Positions 7,210 through 34,718 of a DNA stretch of 34,718 bases are shown here, one piece after another (position 1 is the stretch's first letter; each line of letters begins with the position of its first letter). Below the pieces are notes generated by a model. That model was not told the DNA's origin and searched no databases. It saw nothing but the letters and a program-made list of their open reading frames with translations. Position numbers and translations under genes: made by a program. This DNA comes from Saccoglossus kowalevskii (Eukaryota > Hemichordata > Enteropneusta > Harrimaniidae): contig NW_003143820.1 in the NCBI RefSeq assembly GCF_000003605.2, positions 121,581 to 156,298 of the forward strand, written 5' to 3'.

Positions 7210-8127
7210 GTGAGTACGTTTACTCCAGCTTCAAACATCATTATTTCATTCAGATTATAACAATATATTTTTACTTTACAAATTAATGAGGGAAGTATGC
7301 ATTTACGTGCCTTTCTTATCTGTCATACATGTGAGAATTTTGCGTCTGTTAGTGTAAGCGGAATCGCAAACTCCTTTGAGCGGATTTGATCAACTTTGGT
7401 ACATTTGGATAATGCGCAGACATGATTAGATTTGTGAATATGTCGGTGCATATTAAGTAAGCAAAGTTTCCAAATCTTCTGTGTGATTTCTGATCAAAAT
7501 TAGAACGCAGTCACCTTGGGGATAAGACGTATGACATGATTGGTTCTGTTAACAACAGTTAAAATGTGAAAAGCTCAAATTTGTTTACACTGTACTTGCA
7601 ACATTTATCCTAAATACGTTTTCACTGTACCTAGAAACTTTAATATTTAATTTAAAGGAATATAATCACTTGTCCCCACCACCCATTCCTTTTCATTGCT
7701 ACGAGCAATACTGGCATAACTAAACGTTTTTATGCGGAGAAACAATCTGAATATTATTACTTTAAACTCACTGTAACCGCCATTTGTGACCACGCCGATT
7801 GGTAGTCCCAATCCGCTCAAGTGTTACTGGTAGTAATAACAAATAATAATAATGCGGACTAATAATACCAACAATATATCACCTGTCGTGTTTGTATTAA
7901 TAGTGAAACAGCAATATGTTATCTCCTGTAAGAGGCATGCAGCCCGAGTAGTCCCATTAGACCAATTTTTGCGATGCATTGGATATTTTTAACAATCAAG
8001 AAAGACTGGAAACATACTACAGGCACTTCCACCCATGAATCCTCACCACTGCGCAAACTAATTGAAGAAACGAGCCCATTATTGTGCATCATATTATTCA
8101 CGTTGTTTCATTGTTTCGTAGGTGGAA

Positions 8128-9461
8128 ATGGCGTCACGATTCTTCGCAACGTTCTTGCTGATGATGGTCCTATACGGATTGTGTATTAACGTGAATGGGT
8201 GGAGAAGGAGGCGGCGTTCGTGTTCGCCTACTGACTGTATTCTCAGTAGCTGGTCGTCGTGGTCGTCGTGTAGTTCAGAATGTGGAACGAATGGGTTGAA
8301 AACTCGTACCCGTACGCTATATTCTCACGCGACTTGTGGGGGATCTTGTGGTTCACGATCCGAAAGCGTGTCATGTAACAACGATGCAGCTAGTTGTCAT
8401 TTCCATGGATACCCAAGCGGTAGTCAGTGCATCTGCTACGACGGATTCCATGGACTGTGTTGTGAAAATGAAAAGACTGGTAATTCAAATATTTATTTCT
8501 CCAGTTCGACTTTCATGTAACTTGTGATTATGACACGTATAATTATTGCATTAAACACAGATATATCTATATTGACATGAAACGCACACATAATGAGTTT
8601 ATTATATTCAGTCTAGCTAATTAGCGCCCAGGAGGCGTCAACTGCGCATGCGCGAGGATTAAGACCTAACAGTAGAAGTGATATAGCATATTCACACCAG
8701 TGGCGGCCGCACGGGGGGATCGTCCCATCGTAAAAAATCAAGCTGAAATCTTTTGTGTCAGCAAAATTTACCCCTCAAAATGCAAGAAATAGCGTTTCAG
8801 AGGATCTGGATTTCAAAATTTTTATGGGGGAGCATAAACCCTGACCCCTTAGTAAGATCGCGCCTTTGGCGCGTGGTTGGAGAGCACATCTCGCCCCTCC
8901 ATGTAAAATGTTGTGCCGTCGCCTCTGCACACACATATTTCGCATTCTATAACGATTTATTTCCACTTAATTTCAGACAATAACATAAACAACAACTACA
9001 ACTACAACATGCGCAATGCAGGTAAGTACGCTTGACATGATAGGATGGTCTTCTTATACTACATTAACTTCCATCTTTTTCAAAACATGTATCTGTTATA
9101 AGTGCTATATGAAATACATTTTGTCATCAATACAAAGTGACTAAGCGTGGACACGTAAAAAAGGTACACTTCTAAGGTTATTGGAATTATATTTGTTTGG
9201 TTTCAAGATCTGATTTAAAATAATTCAGGATTTCATTCACAACCAAGCCTATCCTATCCTCTGACGGAAATAAAAAAAACGCATTTAAATGTGAATAAAA
9301 ACGGACCCAGAACATGTAACAACACATTATAATATTCATTTGAAGCAATTTTAAAAGTATGACATATATTTATTTCAGGCACCTTTGCTAAAATGATCAG
9401 TGGACTGGTCGGAGGGATTTTTATTATGGGATTGATCATAGTCTCCATGATGAAGAACTGA
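8128..9461 (+). CDS. Predicted type I membrane protein: signal peptide, TSP1 repeat, EGF-like tail, Asn-rich linker, TM helix
   Basis: Three coding exons: 8128-8479, 8977-9021 and 9379-9461, all with GT/AG junctions (G|GTAATT, TTTCAG|; G|GTAAGT, TTTCAG|), both introns phase 1, total 159 residues. Residues 1-24 form a signal peptide. WRRRRR (25-30) gives a furin-like polybasic site at the mature N-terminus. Residues 36-84 form a thrombospondin type 1 repeat: WSSWSSC, the CxxxCG...RTRT stretch, CGGSCGSRSESVSC. Residues 90-112 carry an EGF-like end with CICYDGFHGLCC. Exon 2 encodes only an Asn/Tyr linker (DNNINNNYNYNMRNA). Exon 3 encodes one hydrophobic helix (about 138-157) and a two-residue tail (KN) before the stop. 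ATG 8128 is the first Met downstream of the apparent 5' UTR acceptor. If intron 1 is retained, the frame ends at 8520 without a helix, giving a soluble form. TSP1 repeats usually mediate adhesion, matrix or ligand contacts; the real function is unknown. Confidence 0.8.
8690..8915. repeat. Probable old repeat inside intron 1 of the TSP1 gene
   Basis: The segment begins AGTGGCGGCCGCACGGGGGG and runs through patches such as GGGGGAGCATAAACCCTGAC with much higher G+C than the surrounding intron. It looks like an inserted, decayed repeat with a short open frame on each strand. No ends or target duplication are clear. Just upstream (about 8643) is a GCGCATGCGC palindrome. Confidence 0.3.
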
Positions 9462-10036
9462 GAATAGGGAACACCATCTCGTTTAATCAATTTTCAAAGC
9501 GCAAACATGTAATCTGGTATTAATACTACATTCGCTTAATAGCAACATTTTATTAACATTTCCCTTTTATATCTTTATATATTTGCTGCGTTAGTGGTTA
9601 TTATATTAGTGATACTTTTTATTTTACGTTTATATTTGCATCGTTCATCATTTCACACATGTATTTTTATATTGGTTCAATGGCCAGATCCAAGATGGCC
9701 GAATGAAGGTTACTGTAATGTTGATAAGCCTCAACTTAAACGATTCTTGCATTCCGGGCACGTATAACGGTCAAACTTTGGCAATTGTTTTTTAAACTGT
9801 GTACACAAATTGAACAGGGAACCACAATGTTTTTCACACCGTACTCCAAATTGCTGGGTGACGACATCTAATTTTGACCTGGTTTTGTGTTTGTTATTTT
9901 TTACTAACGTCGTAACAATAGTCATGCTTGCCTGCCAGCGAACAATAACCCGGATCCATGATATATAACAATGAAGTATAGGAATAAACAATAGTGCATA
10001 TACCAACATGTGATTATACCTTAGCTATTATAGATC

Positions 10037-10067
<31 letters not shown>

Positions 10068-11924
10068 CATGGGGGGGGGGGGTAGATGGTGATTTAATTC
10101 AAGGCTCTTTAAAATGCATTCTAAAAGATTGCTTCATTCTATGCTCAACAACTCAATGCAAAATGATATCTAGCTAGCGAATAACACATGTCATTTTTCT
10201 GGGGGTTCTTTTGATAAGAAATTGTTATGGATTTGACGATCAGTAATGAGAGTATACCAAAGTTGCGTAAATGAACTATGAAAAACCAAGCCAGTATTTC
10301 ATTACTTTTGAGTGAAAAGTTCGTTGAATATCAAATAATAGAACGCTTCAACGAATTAAATGTGCTTTAATGAGTTTAATTTACATAAACTACTGAGTTT
10401 ATGTACATAATAAGATGCGAAGGTAGTGGTAAAACAACAACACAATCTTCCTGCTTCATGGCGCGTCTGACTATCGACTTACAATGTACTAGTATCAGTT
10501 GTTATTGTGGTGTTTATCGCACATTGTATTGTTATGTCAGTCACGTACTGACATCCCTGGCCACTGGAAGTGTGAAATCACTAGTGTGGTATCAGATCGA
10601 TCCACATTCTTTATACATGCGCGTACATAAAACGGTTCAGTAAAACGTTCTCTGATTTGAAAATATTATTTGGATCGTAGAGACATCCAGAATACTGTGG
10701 CACGAGAAGTGCAATATCTACAATCTCAAGTTCAGCTGAAAAAATCATTGGAATATATTAACTTAAGATTTTTATTAGAATATAAATTAAGTAAATAACC
10801 TGAATTAAAAGATTTGACTTTTTATATCTTATTTTAACAAATCTATTTAGAAATTTAGCTTAACGCAGGTAAAGAATACAATTCGCTAGAAAAGAAGATG
10901 GGCACAATTTCCCTTTGAATGATGAAGCTTCTTAAAAACGGCTGACGAATATATGTATGTTGATAGTGAGAAAAGTTACACATGTAACATACCAAAGAAA
11001 CGGATATATTTGTAATACAAGAACCATTTCTATTAAAATGTTTTATATAGGGTGGAAAATTGTAGACTGAAGTTACGTTTGAAATTATTTTTGTTAACAA
11101 TTTTTCCTCAAAATTGTCCAATATTCACAATTAGAAAGGATTGGTTAAACTGTTGGATGACGTCATTCTGGATTTTCATAATTAACAGAAATTGGCCAAT
11201 TACTTATGAACAATTTGTCATCTACCTCACTAATGCAATCATCCGATAAAAGTATCGCACTATAGCCTTTATAGACAATGTATGTTTTGACAAAATAACT
11301 GGAACACATTTTGTTTAGTCACGTCGCCATCTTGGATTTTGTAAAACCGAAAGTGCTTATATAAATTGTACTTTTTTTTGTTGGCGGGTCTAGGAGTTCC
11401 GACTTGTTGTTTGTGCAACATACATGGCATATGTGTAATTCATATTCATAAAAAAAAATTAGCGGAGTTGGCAGTAATTTTTAAACTGTATCTTCTTCTA
11501 CAAATCTTGGAGTAAAAGACCTCGAATTCGGGGTACCGTTTTGGCAGGCTGGGTCAATATTGGTGAAACTTTACAGGAGGGTTAAACCTGTACTATGGAA
11601 AAAAGATAAATTGAAAAAAAAACATGATTTTCGATCGTAGCTTCCCTCAAAACCCTTATTTACACTTGACTTCATTGGTTGAAATAGCGGTGTTAATAAA
11701 CCTCTTTAAAAGTGCCTTGTCTGTGTGTCTGTTCACACATAATACGCTGTTCACACCTGCACTTTAGGTGAACAAATTTGGAAAAACTCCGAGCAGATCA
11801 CCAATCGGCCTACTGGCAAGACGGCTTTGTGCTCTGTTTGACATTTTGTCCCTAAAAGTCCACATTATTCATTATTACACTCTGCTTTTAACAGTACGAC
11901 GCCCATAATCAGGCAACTTTTTCT
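9462..11924. other. Non-coding stretch downstream of the TSP1 gene
   Basis: No canonical AATAAA follows the TSP1 stop closely. The longest frame (10009-9731, minus, 92 codons) starts with a hydrophobic segment and ends in a CPEC motif, but has no splice or family support. No repeat other than the TG/G tract at 10039-10082 was recognised. Confidence 0.45.
10039..10082. repeat. (TG)n microsatellite followed by a 12-G run
   Basis: Uninterrupted TG dinucleotides at 10039-10067, about 14.5 units, then CAT, then 12 consecutive G at 10071-10082. A simple-sequence tract likely to be length-polymorphic. Confidence 0.95.
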
Positions 11925-12232
11925 ATGTCGGATGTGAACCTGCGGCCGTCTTAGCAACCGTTTGTTTATGCCGAGTAATTTGTGCAATGCGATAACATTA
12001 TCGACGACTGGAGCGTGATCAATTCAGACGTTAGTAGACGAACGTTTGGCTGTTCGCCAACATATTTTTAATAGTTCTCTCTCTATTGTACAACTAATAA
12101 TGAAATAGGTAAATAGGTTCAGAGATCACGGATGTCTAATATCAACGAGCGCCATAGCAACCGTTTGTCGAGCAGGTTATGCAATCACATTATCAATGAT
12201 ACAAGCATTGAATAATTGTACCCGTATTCACT
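11925..12232 (+). repeat. Two copies of an interspersed repeat family (third copy at 15525-15660)
   Basis: Copies at about 11925-12058 and 12118-12232 share the order: CGGATGT..., TAGCAACCGTTTGT, a GAG-containing word, TGCAAT, CATTATC-A-GA, then AGCGTGA or a degenerate form. The copy at 15525-15660 shows CATAACAACCGTTTGTTTAT, GTCGAGT, TGCAACCATATTAC, GAAGCGTGAACA. All copies are diverged and have no evident coding content. Ends are approximate, so the element class is not assigned. Confidence 0.5.
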
Positions 12233-12429
12233 TTTTATTTCGTTTTAAGGGTAATGAACGGCAAACGAGAGTATTTGCGGATGTAAGAGCTCTCGGGGGA
12301 ATTTGCATATGTGGCGGAAAATAATAACCGAGCCTAAACGAATTTGTATATCCGTATATTTCAACTAACTGGTGGTGTACACTGTTTACTCAAATAAAAC
12401 GAAGCAAAACAAGTAAAAATAGTTTTTAA

Positions 12430-12617
12430 TTGTCATTATTTGCATTTAAACTGACGACGACAAGCCCTAAGATTGCCAATGACGAAATTGACGTCACGTG
12501 TTCGATTCGTACCCATGCACCAAAGAACGACGGAATTTGCTTGCGATACACACAATATAACAACAATTTTGACAACAATAATTCGTATTATTACTTGTAC
12601 CAGGTTTCCACTATTTC
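12430..12617 (+). CDS. Possible internal exon with Cys pair and Asn/Tyr-rich end (weak)
   Basis: An open frame ends with CSIRTHAPKNDGIC, then YTQYNNNFDNNNSYYYLY, and runs into a good donor TTC|GTAAGTTG at 12618. The Asn/Tyr-rich end recalls the linker exons of the two membrane-protein genes in this window. Against it, no convincing acceptor is visible on the 5' side (candidate AAG near 12465 is weak), no partner exon was found, and low-complexity AAC/AAT runs can arise by chance. The composite TGACGTCACGTG (CRE plus E-box) at about 12490 may instead mark a regulatory site. Confidence 0.2.
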
Positions 12618-12673
12618 GTAAGTTGACCATACACAATTCACTAAGCAGTGCAGCAAGATGTTTGATTCAGTAA

Positions 12674-15524
12674 GTTATTTAAATCACTTTATTCAATTTT
12701 TGGGAAGATACAAGGCCTTACATTAGCCAATAAGCTGACTAGATTTAGACTATATATTACACACTACACTACATACTTACAGTGGCATGTTTACATTCCC
12801 TTAGTTACAATGTAAAAACTTCTGTAACAATTTATAATTACTTTTATAGGAGTCAATGCTTTCATTGGGAGTTTACACAAATTGCGTTTTAACCGATCAG
12901 AGAGTAGTTTATTCGTTGACGACGTTAGCTAATTCTAACCAACTGTCGGTTATCGAAAAAACTGCCAAAATTAGCTTTCAAAGGTCTATTGCTAAAGCTT
13001 CTATTAGCAGGAAACCCATATTTATTAAATAGACTTTGACAAGTTCTTGATTTATATCTTTTTAAATCGGTGATGTTGCAGACGACACTTTCCTCACTTT
13101 TTTCATTATTTAAAGCGCAGTGGTCGTCGCGCAGCGCGTGTTCGAATTTCATGTAAATAAACAATGTATTTTACACGCGTTGTATACGTCGCTATGAGTC
13201 CCATATCGAACAGGACGCGGCACGACGACTGCCGCCCTTTAACATACTAGTACTCGGCGTCGGCTCTCTGTGTCGGCTGACTGAGGTTTAAAGTCAACAT
13301 TAGGTATGCGCCGTCGATTCCATTCCATGGGGGAATTAAATAAAATGTACTGCTTACTTTTATTTAGTTTTGACCACACTGTCCAAACAGATCTGAATAC
13401 CGTACTAATGCGTCACGCATGTCTGGCAGAGTATAATGACCCGCATTCACGGTATCAAACAAAGTAGTACACAACTACCTTAAAGGTTGGGACATGAATT
13501 ACAAATCGCTAAGAAAAATCTAGTGCAACAGCGCTATTGTACAATAACTCGGATCTGGAAATCAAACAATGCAGTATACACGTAAACAATTAATTCAATC
13601 CAATTGATTACGTTATATGACGTTTTTTTATTTTATTTTTTTATTGCATTCAAATTCTTTTATAACTCTAGCGAGAAGTTTTTCTATTGAATATTTTCAA
13701 TTTCAAATAGGTCCAATCTGTCGTATCCTAATTACAAAGACTCTGAAGTGTCCGAAAATTTGATAATTCATAATCTTCATAGTGATAGTGTGCTGATTGA
13801 GACTTTGGTCAAAATACTATCTGACAGTACCACCCTGATAAGTGTCCTATTATATTTTCTAATAACAAAATAACACTAGAAGCACATAAATGAAACCCCT
13901 TGGGGGAAATTACCCAATCTTGAAATACATCTCACTGGAAAACGTCATAATAGGTTAGAAAAGTTTCTAGGTGTTCAACGTGCTTTTTTGAAGAATACTG
14001 CAAAATGGAACAAAAACAAACCCATTCACTGCTATCGATTGATGAACGAAACTCGCATACTTAAAGTACAAGTTCAAGGATATTGTGCGACCAAAGTACT
14101 TGGACAACACATTTCAACATTTCAACACAAGGTCGTGTCGGTGAAAGTAAGATACATGGGCCATAAAACTATACAGCCAAGATGTGATATCAGGTTAAGT
14201 AAGCACATGATCGACATGTGTCACCGGAATACACTCATCTATACTATACTTCAATTATCCATACAAACTACACGACAAGCATGAAATGCGGTATGCGGTG
14301 GTTGCAGTACCCAGGAGCCACACGCGTTTATTACAGGTATCCCCCCTTACATATGTAAATACACACGAAATAGTTGATAATCGACCGCCCAGGAAAAACC
14401 AGATATAAAAACCCGTCATGGGAGAAACACGTCTGGAAACTTGTACCCGACGCAATGCCAGATGTACCTAGGGGTGGATGTCGGGCGTCATCCATATTAA
14501 GAAAAATGTATATTTATAAAAATAAATAAAATAAAACATCGCGAGTTGTTGACTGAATACAATAGAGTACCCTTTCTACTATATATACTCATGAGCACCT
14601 GACTACTTAGCCAATAACCAATCGGAGCAGGTGAAATCCCACCTGTTTAATTTACATACGAATAGATAGCAATTATCTGCTAATCTACGGAACGCAGATA
14701 ATTTATCATTCTGAAATATAATCAAATAATATCTGTCATCTGAGATCATAGGTGTAACAGTTTTACAAAATTTAATCACAAGCACATTATATTTGTCAAA
14801 TTGTATTTTGAAACGGGAAAATGTATATCATATAGCTAGAAGAGATTATTTCAGTGAAGGTGTGAACAATTGGTGATGGCAAAAATAAAATCATCTTTTT
14901 TGTCCTATAGTCTGGAGGAAAGCGGTTGCTATAAGCAAAACGGATTCTATAAACCATGATCTCAAATTCAGCTTTATATAATATTGGATTATACTAGTAC
15001 TAACTTAGGATGAGCATCAACAATATAATGAGATAAAAACGAATTCTGCTAGTTCCAGGTCTAATCCTAATAAATCAAGTGGATCCAATTCAATAACTGG
15101 TACACACATTCGTGCTGTAACATGTCTTGAGTTTTTAACTTAGCATTCGCAATAACATTCTGAATACAGCTTTCTTTTAAATTATAATCCGACGATTTGT
15201 TTTTGAATCGGTTCGATTACATGTAGATTGGTAATTTGCATACGTAATAGTGTCATGCATTTCTGAACTTATAGCTCGGCCAGGTATCAAGGTTTGGCGG
15301 TAAATGAGAATTCCCTCTCAGCTATTGACGTAGTTGTCCAAACTGCATTCAAACCACATGACTTTCGTTAATGTATATATAAACCCTTTTTATAAGGGAT
15401 TTGGTTGGGATGGCATAACAGACGTGAACGATTGAAGAATAAATCGTCGACATGTGATATGCAAGACAATGCATTGACTTGTACCTTAGGCTTCAGGCAT
15501 TACTATAACTAATTTTGATACGGA
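12674..15524. other. Non-coding stretch, one unexplained stop-free interval
   Basis: The plus frame from 13880 to 14284 has no stop for about 134 codons, but its first ATG is far inside and no family is recognised. A TATAAAA word at about 14404 and a TATATAAA word near 15374 have no gene clearly attached. The rest is A+T-rich DNA without assigned features. Confidence 0.4.
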
Positions 15525-15660
15525 CACACGGGGTCACTGATCCCGGATATGTATTGAATGTCACCATAACAACCGTTTGTTTATGTCGAGTGTTTTTTTA
15601 ATGCAACCATATTACTGAAGCGTGAACATTTTACACGTATTTACTCGGCAAACAATGAAC
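15525..15660 (+). repeat. Third copy of the AACCGTTTGTTTAT repeat family
   Basis: Same orientation and word order as the two copies near 12 kb: CACTGATCCCGGATATGTAT at the start, CAACCGTTTGTTTATGTCGA in the middle, GAAGCGTGAACA and CTCGGCAAACAATGAAC at the end. It lies about 0.85 kb upstream of the Cys-tail gene. Confidence 0.5.
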
Positions 15661-16513
15661 TCTCATTGCATGATTCATGAAACTGATTTTTCCCTATTAC
15701 ACTAAACAGCTACATCGCTAGACTTACATTACCAAGGTAGAAATGTTAAATGTTTAACAAGTTGCCAAAACACAACATCAAAAGATAGTGTTTTCAATAG
15801 GGTGTTTAGACTATGGGCAAGGGCTGAAACGTCCATGTAAGCCATTCGTCCCATACTTCAATCATTGACGTGACAAGCAAATTTCGTATAAGGTACAGCC
15901 AAAAATAAAAAAAAATAATCTGAAGTTGGAATACAATCATTTATGGTTTATTTGTTCAGTTTAAGTAGGAAAAAATAAACGTTGACAAATGCGAGTTCTT
16001 CTGAAATCGGCGATGTTGGTTTCCTGCCTTCTGTCGTTACTCATAAATTCGAAGTCATTGGTGCGGACATACTCGTACTGATTTAAAAGCTAAATAAATG
16101 ACACCAGACATACTCGTAAGTGCGCAGGCGCAACACAAACAAGCAGTAGCACTGTAACAAACAACATATTTTCTGGAAGCAGAAGCAGCGTTGTGATTGA
16201 GAGGTGTAACGAAGTTGAAATTTTTCTTCAATCGGAAATTTGCCGACGTTATCACTCACGGTTATTTTTATTAAGTGAAAGGTATGGATTATGAAAATAT
16301 TGTCAAATATTAACATATTCAGTGACATAGCCGCACGCGTCGGGAGGTAGTGCATTCGAATAGCGCTCAAACACCAGCGATTTGAGTGCGCCCTCTATCG
16401 AGCTCATGTTATCACCCAAGACTTTCATTCGCTATCCGTGTGCTATGTAATAAACTACTCCACATCAATACCTAATAATTTTGTTTTATTTTAATTTTCA
16501 TCATTCAACAAGG

Positions 16514-18037
16514 ATGGCGATAATTAATGTGATGAATGTATTAATGGTGTATGTTTGGTTTCTCGGGGCATATGCATTTAATCCAAGAGGTAGGTATCAA
16601 ACAGTAGAACGATGACGTCATTACAAACTAAGAAGTGTATACTAGTAAATGTGCGTGTTCCTGTAAGTAAAATAAATATAACTCTCTTCTCTGTTTTCTT
16701 GTGAGTAACAATTATTTTTATGGTGTCGTTTCCACAGACAATATAAATGAAAATACTAATATTAATTACTACAATGATAGCGACGACAGTGGTCTTGGAG
16801 GTAAGTGTACACTTACATAAATTTGAAAAATAGTTGTGAACTATTAAATCCCATCATGAAATAGTGCAATATTATTCTTCGGTAAAAAAATCGAAAATCT
16901 GTTTTTGCGTTCTTCATTTATGCTGTTCATGAAGTCAGATATATATCACTGCAACAATGTTTGAAACAAAATGAAGGAATATGTATACGTATATATTTGT
17001 ATTTGGTGAACGTGGTGCAAGGCATGTTAATTACTGGGTCTCGGTTATTTTTCTCCCATCAATAATGTGCGGGTCTAATTAATTAACTAATAGACTTGGC
17101 TGAATTCCAACTTTGTAGTCAAACTAAGGTAACCGTTGTTCCTTCGAATAATGTATCTGTGTTGTAACTCTGGAGGGCGCGATATGGAATGTTTCTAGAT
17201 CATTAAACTAAACATATAAATCCACCCATAATCATTTTAATACAAGAACAATTCTAGGACAGTTTTACGGTGTATCTGTTACAAGTACAGTTACTTTAAT
17301 AACTTTGAACTTAAATTTGTTAATTACAATACGTTACGTTCACCTTTCACTGTGACGTCATACAACATTTTGGTTGAGAAAATATCAGTATTATTCAGGT
17401 CAATAAGGGTATATTATTGAAAAACGACGATTTTTGTTTATAATGTCTTCTAATTGTATATCTGATTTATCGTCGAAACATCTAGGGTTAAGAGCGCTCT
17501 CTATACGAGTCAAGATTACCCCAACTTCATCGACATGGCGTTAGTAAATGTAAATTATGTCATATTGGACCCACTAGTTTTGACAATTTCACTCACCTCA
17601 TAAAATTGTGCATAACCTTGCGCGACCTTTTAAGACAATATCCATACATATTAAGTAGCTAATTTGCATACTGGTTCCAATAAATATAATTTTTCATTGA
17701 CTATATGTCATGATCACTGTTTGTAGATACAAGTTTAGTTGTGTATTTAGCATTAAAATGGTTATTACTTAATGTATGGGTTAATGTGGCACCATTTGGA
17801 AAAAAACATTCAAATTAAATATTTGATCCTTAATTTGTGTAATATGATTCTAATTGTTTTGTTTTCACTCAGTTATTTTATTATTGTTCTTTTTTTTTAA
17901 TTTTAGTACTGGAACTTATTGGAATTATTATTGGAGTAATCGGCGCAGTTTCTCTGAGTATTGGCATATTTTGTTGCTGTTACTGCGAATGCTGCAATTG
18001 TTGCAAAACAGACAATACTGTCAATGTCGTCTACTGA
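16514..18037 (+). CDS. Small predicted type I membrane protein with Asn-rich linker and Cys-cluster tail
   Basis: Three exons: 16514-16589, 16738-16800 and 17907-18037, with junctions AGAG|GTAGGT, TCCACAG|, GGAG|GTAAGT, TTTTAG|; both introns phase 1 (148 and 1106 bp); 89 residues. Residues 1-21 are a signal peptide (MAIINVMNVLMVYVWFLGAYA). Residues 26-46, exactly exon 2, form an Asn/Asp-rich ectodomain with one N-glycosylation sequon (NDS at 38-40) and YYNDSDD. Residues about 48-68 are one membrane helix rich in Ile/Gly. The juxtamembrane tail is CCCYCECCNCC (69-79), then KTDNTVNVVY. The cysteine block suggests palmitoylation and recalls the layout of Shisa/CYYR1/VOPP1-type adaptors, but homology is not shown. 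The start context AAGGATGG is good. Neighbours in the DNA are repeats; exon structure matches the TSP1 gene 7 kb upstream. Possible ATTAAA poly(A) signal at 18247. Confidence 0.75.
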
Positions 18038-24528: not shown

Positions 24529-24974
24529 ACATGTGTAACGTTTCTGTTTTCAGTAATTATTTGAGAATCTGATATGTTTTGCAACATGTGTAACGTTTCT
24601 GTTTTCAGTAATTATTTGAGAATCTGATATGTTTTGCAACATGTGTAACGTTTCTGTTTTCAGTAATTATTTGAGAATCTGATATGTTTTGCAACATGTG
24701 TAACGTTTCTGTTTTCAGTAATTATTTGAGAATCTGATATGTTTTGCAACATGTGTAACGTTTCTGTTTTCAGCAATTATTTGAGAATCTGATATGTTTT
24801 GCAACATGTGTAACGTTTCTGTTTTCAGTAATTATTTGAGAATCTGATATGTTTTGCAACATGTTTAACGTTTCTGTTTTCAGTAATTATTTGAGAATCT
24901 GATATGTTTTGCAACATGTGTAACGTTTTTGTTTGCAGTAATTATTTGAGAATCTGATATGTTTTGCAACATGT
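24529..24974 (+). repeat. 55-bp minisatellite, eight copies
   Basis: Units begin at 24529, 24584, 24639, 24694, 24749, 24804, 24859 and 24914, each starting ACATGTGTAACGTTTCTGTT, followed by the partial unit ACATGT. Copies are nearly identical: unit 5 has CAGCAATTA for CAGTAATTA, unit 7 has ATGTTTAACG, unit 8 has GTTTTTGTTTGCAG. Every unit contains a splice-acceptor-like TTTCTGTTTTCAG (or variant) and the AT-rich core TAATTA or CAATTA. High identity implies recent expansion. Confidence 0.97.

Positions 24975-32686: not shown

Positions 32687-32774
<88 letters not shown>
32687..32774. repeat. (AT)44 microsatellite
   Basis: 88 uninterrupted bases of alternating AT, 180 bp beyond the stop codon of the sulfatase gene on its 3' side. 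Apparent open frames encoding poly(Ile-Tyr) across it are artefacts of the repeat. Confidence 0.98.
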
Positions 32775-32953: not shown

Positions 32954-34718
32954 TTATACCCATGGACTTATGCATTCTCCCATCCCATCAAAATCAGCAC
33001 GCGGATATATTCTTGACTGGGCAGGCACGGACTGCTTCGAAAAGTTATGAAGCTTTGCAAGCATTTCAATCACAATATGCTGATTCATCTCTGACAAATC
33101 AGTTGTTTCAGTTTCATCGTCTTCTATGTTATATAGTCGCACCATACGTGTTGAGTCGAAATCAGGATCCTCTACTATTCTATGGTCGGAGTTTATCTCT
33201 TGGGGTTTAACCCAATCACTTGGTCCTGACATACACAAAAAGTAAAAATATTAATAAATAAATAATTTGTGATGATATCAAGTCTGATTGCTTTGATACT
33301 ATACATATAGGTACCTCAGGTAAACCTCTCTCACATTTGTTCATTTTGTGATGATATCTTCAATTGTCTAATTTTGGTGAATATGTTTGTAATTTTTGTT
33401 AAAAAGTGATATTTTGGAATTCTTGTTGAAAATTCGTTTGCTTTGATACTATATATATTGTTCATTTTCTAATGATATCTTTAGTTCTTTAATTGAAATG
33501 TGCATTGCTAACAGTGGGGCTATCTCAGCAAATAGGCTGCTTGTTTCATTTGAGAAGGTTTGTCTGCATATGAATATTTCGCACTCAAAATATTGGAGAC
33601 GGATAATATTGATAAGCACTCACCTCCAATTGGTCCAGTCAATAACTTCCATTTTCCCATTTTTATCGCTGCATGTGTTGTTATGTCAAAAGCATTATTC
33701 TTATATATACCAGTTCTATAGTGTGCACCTGCTTTATTATCTTCCTCAAGTGTAATCAACACATCGTCGCGCCCAGATTTGTCTTCACCTCTGTAAGATA
33801 TCAAAGTGGGATTTCGTATTGTATGACTACCCAATTATTACACTGTAGTTTGCCATGCCTTAGTTAAATTTTGTGATAATATACCACCTCACTGAATACT
33901 GGCACAACTACAACAACAGCAACAGCGGGAAACACTATACACAGTTTTACGCAAATGAAAAGAAAATACAGGATTGATACGTAAGTGTGGCACATACGTT
34001 ATCATATTCCACTGATCAACTCCGTATAGCTTCTTTCCGACATGTGGATTGCCACCAGCCAATGTTATTAAAGTTGGGAACCAGTCTGTGATATGCATTA
34101 GACCCGTATTCTCGGTACCTCGTGAGTGACAAGGAAGCAAATCACCATAAACGAATCCAACAGCTCTCACACCTCCTTCCCAACTCGTATGCTTTCCTCC
34201 TCTCAGGGGCCAGTTGTTGCCAGCAGAACCTACCAAAGCCCCGCCATTGTCTGTAATGTTGTATGGTTAAACACTAAATTAGGAACAAACATTTTGAACC
34301 TCACTTGAAAATGTATACGAACGTTTAGCTGGATAATGAAACTGAATGTCAAGCAATAAATTTGATGAGAAACAATGATTTCCGACCTTCCGTAAATTTG
34401 CTAAGCTGATTCTACCAATTGTCTATCAACATAAACAGATTCGTCGTGTAACGGAAGGAATAAATATGATAAGAGGGTTGTATCACAAACAATCATTATG
34501 TATATTACTTTAATATTTATTACCGGAAGTGAAAACGATTATACTGTTTTTTAACATGTTCTTCTCTTCAAGTGCCTCAGTGATATTCGCGATAGCCTCG
34601 TCTACACATGATGTCATTGCTGCATATGTTCGTCTGTCCTCGTCATGAATAGTTGACTCGTATTGTTTCAAATACGAGGACGGAACCTCGAGAGGTGCGT
34701 GTACCGCAGAAAATGACA
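32954..34718 (-). CDS. Arylsulfatase B-like sulfatase, C-terminal half (four exons, 5' part outside window)
   Basis: Exons in gene order: 34718-34524 (partial), 34250-33998, 33790-33624 and 33225-32954. Junction phases agree throughout (1, 2, 1), with donors G|GTAATA, AAC|GTATGT, GGAG|GTGAGT and acceptors ending ACAG, TACAG, GTCAG. The visible part is 294 residues; related enzymes are about 500-560. Motifs: HAPL (substrate-site His); VDEAIANITEAL; VFTSDNGG, with the metal-binding Asp-Asn split across an intron; GNNWPLRGGK and SWEGG, active-site Lys and the ARSB-type signature; HITDWFPTL; GVDQW; KMGKWKLLTG; and a C-terminal RLYNIEDDETETTDL. These enzymes hydrolyse sulfate esters, typically of glycosaminoglycans, in lysosomes or outside cells. 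The formylglycine cysteine and signal peptide should lie beyond 34718. ARSB versus ARSI/ARSJ cannot be settled here. The gene looks intact. Confidence 0.93.

Follow-up and report, generated by a model that had tools for sequence, protein, structure and literature searches.

Two adjacent candidate genes for small type I membrane proteins in Saccoglossus kowalevskii, one of them built on a recurrent polyarginine-TSP1-EGF start exon

The last 34,718 bases of a Saccoglossus kowalevskii contig (C3484, 156,298 bases) form the window analysed here, within a genome assembly whose 4,830 contigs total 572 Mb. Side by side on its plus strand and 7.8 kb apart lie two three-exon models, gene 1 and gene 2, both probably real genes and each encoding a small membrane protein of type I. 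Gene 1 appears to be a membrane-anchored member of a family whose start exon recurs at 17 loci on nine contigs, window included, and the two neighbours share a layout without proven common descent; we hold this reading with fair, not full, confidence.

Spliced in silico, exons 8128-8479, 8977-9021 and 9379-9461 of gene 1 give an open reading frame of 159 amino acids, and exons 16514-16589, 16738-16800 and 17907-18037 of gene 2 give one of 89. All four introns (8480-8976 and 9022-9378 in gene 1; 16590-16737 and 16801-17906 in gene 2) are GT-AG and phase 1, in agreement with the original prediction of two plus-strand, three-exon, phase-1/phase-1 models. On a simple matrix of our own, the donors score 5.7 and 12.9 and the acceptors 6.9 and 6.4 in gene 1, and 10.0 and 11.8, and 7.0 and 5.4, respectively, in gene 2. 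Both genes open with ATGGCG, and the ATG of gene 2 is flanked by A at -3 and G at +4.

The start exon of gene 1 (8122-8479) consists of six bases of 5' untranslated region behind a possible acceptor, the ATG at 8128, a signal peptide, a Trp, five Arg, a spondin-like TSP1 domain and an EGF-like Cys module, and ends in a phase-1 donor. The protein continues with an Asn-rich stalk, encoded by the 45-bp mini-exon 2 (D-NNINNNYNYNMRNA-G), and with a terminal exon 3 that holds a single hydrophobic helix, a tail of a few residues and the stop. In gene 2, the single-copy exon 1 encodes a signal peptide and Phe-Asn-Pro-Arg before its phase-1 donor; the 63-bp mini-exon 2 (D-NINENTNINYYNDSDDSGLG) adds an Asn-rich stub with one N-glycosylation sequon, NDS; exon 3 carries a single hydrophobic helix, the Cys cluster CCCYCECCNCC, a hydrophilic C-terminus and the stop. 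Signal peptides and helices were called from hydropathy alone, and on that reading each terminal exon is one helix and a stop, as had been noticed earlier. The sizes of the mini-exons, their AC-AAT (Asp-Asn) after the acceptor and their G|GTAAGT at the 3' end are likewise all seen in the sequence.

The head of gene 1 is recognizable by domain models. Its protein passes the Pfam TSP_1 cut-off (23.9 bits against 21.6, E = 4.9e-5) and falls below that of TSP1_spondin (PF19028; 35.8 bits against 41, E = 1e-8). The Cys spacing of the following module resembles EGF, and the only Pfam EGF model that it matches, EGF_TEN, stays below its cut-off (E = 0.041, 13.9 bits against 65). Gene 2 matches Podoplanin (PF05808), also below the cut-off (17.3 bits against 30, E = 0.006). 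Neither protein has a match in NCBIfam.

Searched against the genome, the gene 1 protein gives 42 matches at E ≤ 1, and 15 places outside the window match its exon 1 at E ≤ 1e-9; a further one, C3647:710604, does so at E = 1.3e-7. A query taken from C2261:2838151 (E ≤ 0.001, 19 matches) recovers all 17 loci, together with a second unit on C2507 and a place on C3226. The loci share the layout of this start exon: signal peptide, Trp, four to nine Arg, spondin-like TSP1, an EGF-like Cys module of the form C-x-C...CC and a phase-1 donor. Gene 1 displays each of these elements, while gene 2 lies outside the family, its exon 1 being limited to the signal peptide and four residues. A 15-row alignment of the start-exon proteins has 19 invariant columns; WxxW is present and TSP1 models match in 15/15 members, and a Trp followed, directly or within three residues, by a run of four to nine Arg occurs in all 14 that keep the N-terminus. 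At C3647:710604, which stands outside the alignment, Leu replaces this Trp. EGF models reach E ≤ 0.01 in few of the 15 (EGF_Teneurin in two, EGF_TEN in one). Two of the 17 loci look damaged, C2863:28815 without an N-terminus and C2863:32788 with an in-frame stop; C3226:458107 and C1750:202724 resemble more diverged members. Among the titles and opening parts of abstracts that searches of an open library listed, none describes such a family.

In a tree of 14 exon-1 proteins, from which the partial C2863:28815 was dropped and in which one row was trimmed unlike the others, gene 1 pairs weakly with C2261:2838151 (support 68/83). In the exon of the latter locus (C2261:2837986-2838453, stretch L044), a run of about 20 Pro separates the Arg run from TSP1, and the Cys module is followed by an acidic stretch. 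A single open exon on the minus strand of C2507 (288895-289470, L045) holds two TSP1-EGF units behind one signal peptide and Arg run. Five start exons of the family stand within 22 kb on the minus strand of C2863 (11283-33036, L034-L036). The DNA downstream of some of these C2863 copies is 85-89% alike, and the cluster is a recent local duplication.

At 6/14 loci, including two near-copies, an acceptor scoring at least 6 lies within 30 nt upstream of the ATG, whereas 7% of random places have one; several members of the family therefore probably carry an intron in the 5' untranslated region. Gene 1 has such a strong acceptor 6 nt upstream of its ATG; gene 2 has none.

The loci have a common boundary at the 3' end of the start exon. 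In a scan restricted to phase 1, a phase-1 donor (scores 3.3 to 11.9) lies directly behind the Cys module at 16/17 loci; C2863:32788 was skipped for its stop, and the same donor is present there in an all-phase scan, where 11/11 strong donors no farther than 8 nt from the end of the match are in phase 1. At C2261:2838151 the donor comes after the additional acidic stretch, and on C2507 it follows the second TSP1-EGF unit. Behind four loci (C1101:8235, C2261:2768415, C3647:715556 and C3647:758619) are calcium-binding EGF (cbEGF) exons with phase-1 acceptors; 24 distinct cbEGF-like exon starts were gathered on contigs C1101, C2261 and C3647. At C2261:2838151, a helix exon with an acceptor score of 12.5 is found 736 bp downstream. 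We infer that the start exon would be joined through its phase-1 donor to different ends: cbEGF arrays (four loci) or a helix exon (two loci, gene 1 included). Comparison of paralogue pairs for conserved downstream exons gave recent duplications or diffuse similarity. The earlier suggestion of exon shuffling is supported for gene 1, where the recurrent unit is exon 1, present at 17 loci with differing ends (identified at 6/17), and not the Asn-rich and helix exons.

How often such models arise was assessed with a scan for start exons that encode a signal peptide and can be followed by a phase 1-1 exon of 30-90 bp and then by a helix exon in phase 1; its splice thresholds were the weakest sites of genes 1 and 2, and with criteria set post hoc its figures are guides only. 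The window contains exactly two full models, gene 1 and gene 2, so that the larger local family once envisaged finds no further member there at these thresholds. Nineteen control stretches from elsewhere in this genome (177,611 bases, or 355 kb of strand with both strands counted), picked non-randomly for their exon-1 relatives and with L053 excluded for its overlap with L043, contain one full model, and none with at least four Asn in exon 2. Order-1 Markov sequence (208 kb) gives no full model; 119.8 Mb of single strand simulated at order 3 gives 10, none with at least four Asn in the mini-exon. Mini-exons with at least six Asn number 4/6,473 in that simulation and two in the window. By chance alone, the 120 Mb of simulated strand yields 4,146 helix-like open ends. 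With relaxed splice thresholds and at least five Asn, the other mini-exons found (eight rows, three loci) are all parts of cbEGF exons.

Are the two genes related? Common descent of their stalk and helix exons is possible. The stalk proteins align at a borderline P of 0.047 against composition-controlled shuffles; neither the DNA of the stalk exons (P = 0.34) nor the helix exons (P = 0.13-0.29) align significantly. The Asn codons also differ, six AAC and two AAT in gene 1 and six AAT in gene 2 (P = 0.0097), as expected if each Asn run grew from its own triplet. We wrote a loose pattern for the start of the Asn-rich exon, Asp-Asn-(x)-Ile-Asn-x-Asn-x-Asn behind CAG, and a stricter one; both derive from genes 1 and 2, so their matching these genes is no evidence in itself. 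The loose pattern has six matches in 572 Mb, two of which are genes 1 and 2, and four control matches; in frame behind CAG it occurs at three places only, genes 1 and 2 and C697:57696. The stricter pattern matches genes 1 and 2 only, and no control. We rejected C697:57696 as a third member: it is in frame, and reaches a stop after about 15 codons with no usable donor. In frame, the loose pattern returns the two genes and one dead end, and the family that does exist is built on gene 1 exon 1 instead.

These results bear on the possibility that genes 1 and 2 are diverged tandem paralogues, with stalk and helix exons from one ancestor, gene 1 having gained the TSP1/EGF start exon through a phase-1 intron or gene 2 having lost it. 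Their position on one strand 7.8 kb apart, equal phases at both junctions, the common ATGGCG start, the marginal alignment of the stalk proteins, an in-frame loose pattern whose third occurrence in the genome leads nowhere and a stricter one confined to this pair would all suit such an origin. However, the patterns were written from these very exons, and the loose one has as many control matches (four) as matches outside the window; neither the stalk DNA nor the helices are demonstrably alike, the Asn codons diverge, direct repeats of at least 40 bases include no DNA likeness between the genes, and the strong acceptor 6 nt 5' of the gene 1 ATG has no counterpart in gene 2. The paralogy proposed earlier is thus not established by the sequence, gene 2 being moreover without a paralogue. 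We regard descent from one tandem ancestor as a rather improbable account, and from the exon comparisons we would likewise give common descent of the stalk-helix exon pairs a minor share of the probability. A bolder version would make genes 1 and 2 local siblings that share a stalk and helix pair unique in the genome, gene 1 having arisen when the start exon, a mobile head piece, was dropped in front through a phase-1 intron; this we find doubtful.

Shared phase had been flagged from the start as a possible coincidence, and this caution was well placed. In the extracellular proteins of animals, exons flanked by phase-1 introns are known to have been shuffled (PMC3927616), and phase 1 at both junctions is therefore what one would expect of genes of this kind.

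It is also conceivable that the Asn-rich mini-exons are worn-down cbEGF exons (DINEC...), the partner of the start exon at four loci. They have the same phase-1 start after AG with Asp, and NINENTNI in gene 2 resembles DINECNTNI of the locus on C1101. Yet when the mini-exons are compared with the 24 cbEGF exon starts, shuffles give gene 2 a P of 0.19 and gene 1 one of 0.93. We rejected this origin as unsupported and consider it very improbable.

Several observations weigh against the favoured reading of a family member beside an independently similar neighbour. Both gene models come from the genomic sequence of one species. Downstream exons were identified at 6/17 loci (four cbEGF, two helix, including gene 1), and four units (C2863:31127, C2863:28815, C3647:715556 and the second one on C2507) have a slightly better phase-1 donor inside the module. 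Exons 2 and 3 of gene 1 match only themselves in the genome, nothing credible resembles them up to 7 kb behind 17 other exon units, and likeness between the helices of gene 1 and C2261:2838151 is not demonstrable (P = 0.23). The stalk exons are the sole live in-frame pattern matches in the genome and are neighbours, which is unexpected under chance convergence; the want of any other place in the genome with the same behaviour speaks weakly for relatedness. Finally, synonymous codon use was scored after training on a small set, 2,692 codons of TSP1 and EGF exons. Gene 2 scores -8.0 bits over 85 codons, and its exon 3 scores below 91% of 1,500 open background stretches. Gene 1 scores +5.9 bits in exon 1, +0.8 in exon 2 and -0.3 in exon 3.

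Such codon use, below background, is what one would see if gene 2 were no gene and represented a chance open path through AT-rich DNA. Its lack of a paralogue points the same way (in the 572 Mb it matches its own exons only, the next match having E = 0.11 and three stops), as do Pfam matches that are all under their cut-offs. On the other hand, full models are rare, with 10 in 120 Mb of simulated strand and one in 355 kb of real strand, the two donors of gene 2 score high and the context of its ATG is favourable. A chance path is in our judgement unlikely, and we retain gene 2 as a probable gene.

If gene 1 and gene 2 are expressed as modelled, the following picture can be drawn of their topology, binding and modification. 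The Asn-rich mini-exon of gene 1 would act as a flexible stalk and its exon 3 as a membrane anchor, so that a basic, disulphide-rich TSP1/EGF head would be shown at the cell surface on a short stalk. This head would most likely bind sulphated glycans or matrix partners, and in some related genes the same kind of head would sit on rods of cbEGF. Gene 2 would be an anchor without a head, with a short stub outside and, on the cytosolic side, a Cys cluster that is probably palmitoylated. The likeness in layout probably comes from the phase-1 compatibility of secretory and membrane exons, combined with Asn runs born of AAC/AAT triplets.

Provided that the models are right, the start exon delivers a secretion signal, a basic stretch and an adhesive head in one piece, at 17 loci and in front of at least two kinds of end. 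The family would then be a compact test case for the acquisition of new N-termini by shuffling, with no in-frame acceptor needed. Should gene 2 be both real and related, it would represent the same chassis without the head.

Elsewhere in the window, three open stretches on the minus strand (32954-34266) resemble pieces of an arylsulfatase gene, which we take to be of B type; one of them has a weak match to the Pfam model Sulfatase (E = 0.006, 16.4 bits against 25). Ten of the 36 listed open reading frames of the window were compared with Pfam, yielding this sulfatase match and two other weak ones, HTH_ABP1_N and DUF998, which were taken as chance. There are no RNA families at gathering thresholds and no tRNAs in the window. 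A 55-bp unit is repeated in tandem at 24529-24974, in 8.1 copies that are 98% alike. Dispersed repeat pairs are found at 18834-18921/21566-21653 (86%), CG-rich and holding ACGTCA, and at 20301-20462/20549-20710 (89%). About 126 bases around 13121-13242 are 87% identical to DNA downstream of C2863:32788 and are probably a dispersed repeat. Perfect AT (32687-32774, 44 copies) and TG (10039-10067, 14.5 copies) runs are also present.

Small single-pass proteins with cytosolic Cys clusters include Shisa, CYYR1 and the like. Gene 2 is similar to them in its signal peptide, its one helix and the Cys residues clustered next to the membrane; the three Pfam families listed for it at E ≤ 1 include neither Shisa nor a related model.

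The head of gene 1 is akin to the spondin-type TSP1 (PF19028, PF00090) in the family's invariant WxxW, CxxxCG and CGG core; both Pfam models match 15/15 members at E ≤ 0.01, and the best match of gene 1 to a solved structure is F-spondin (PDB 1vex, E = 2.5e-6). It differs from TSP1 domains that carry the POFUT2 O-fucose consensus, given as C-x-x-[S/T]-C (PMC11990869): this motif occurs in 0/15 start-exon members.

As a whole, the family recalls the animal modular proteins of class 1-1 that arose by exon shuffling (Patthy; PMC3927616), with which it has in common phase-1 boundaries, EGF and TSP1 modules and new combinations on the C-terminal side. In that class the module is symmetrical, with phase-1 introns on both sides, whereas the piece reused here is a start exon with its own signal peptide, which is somewhat unusual.

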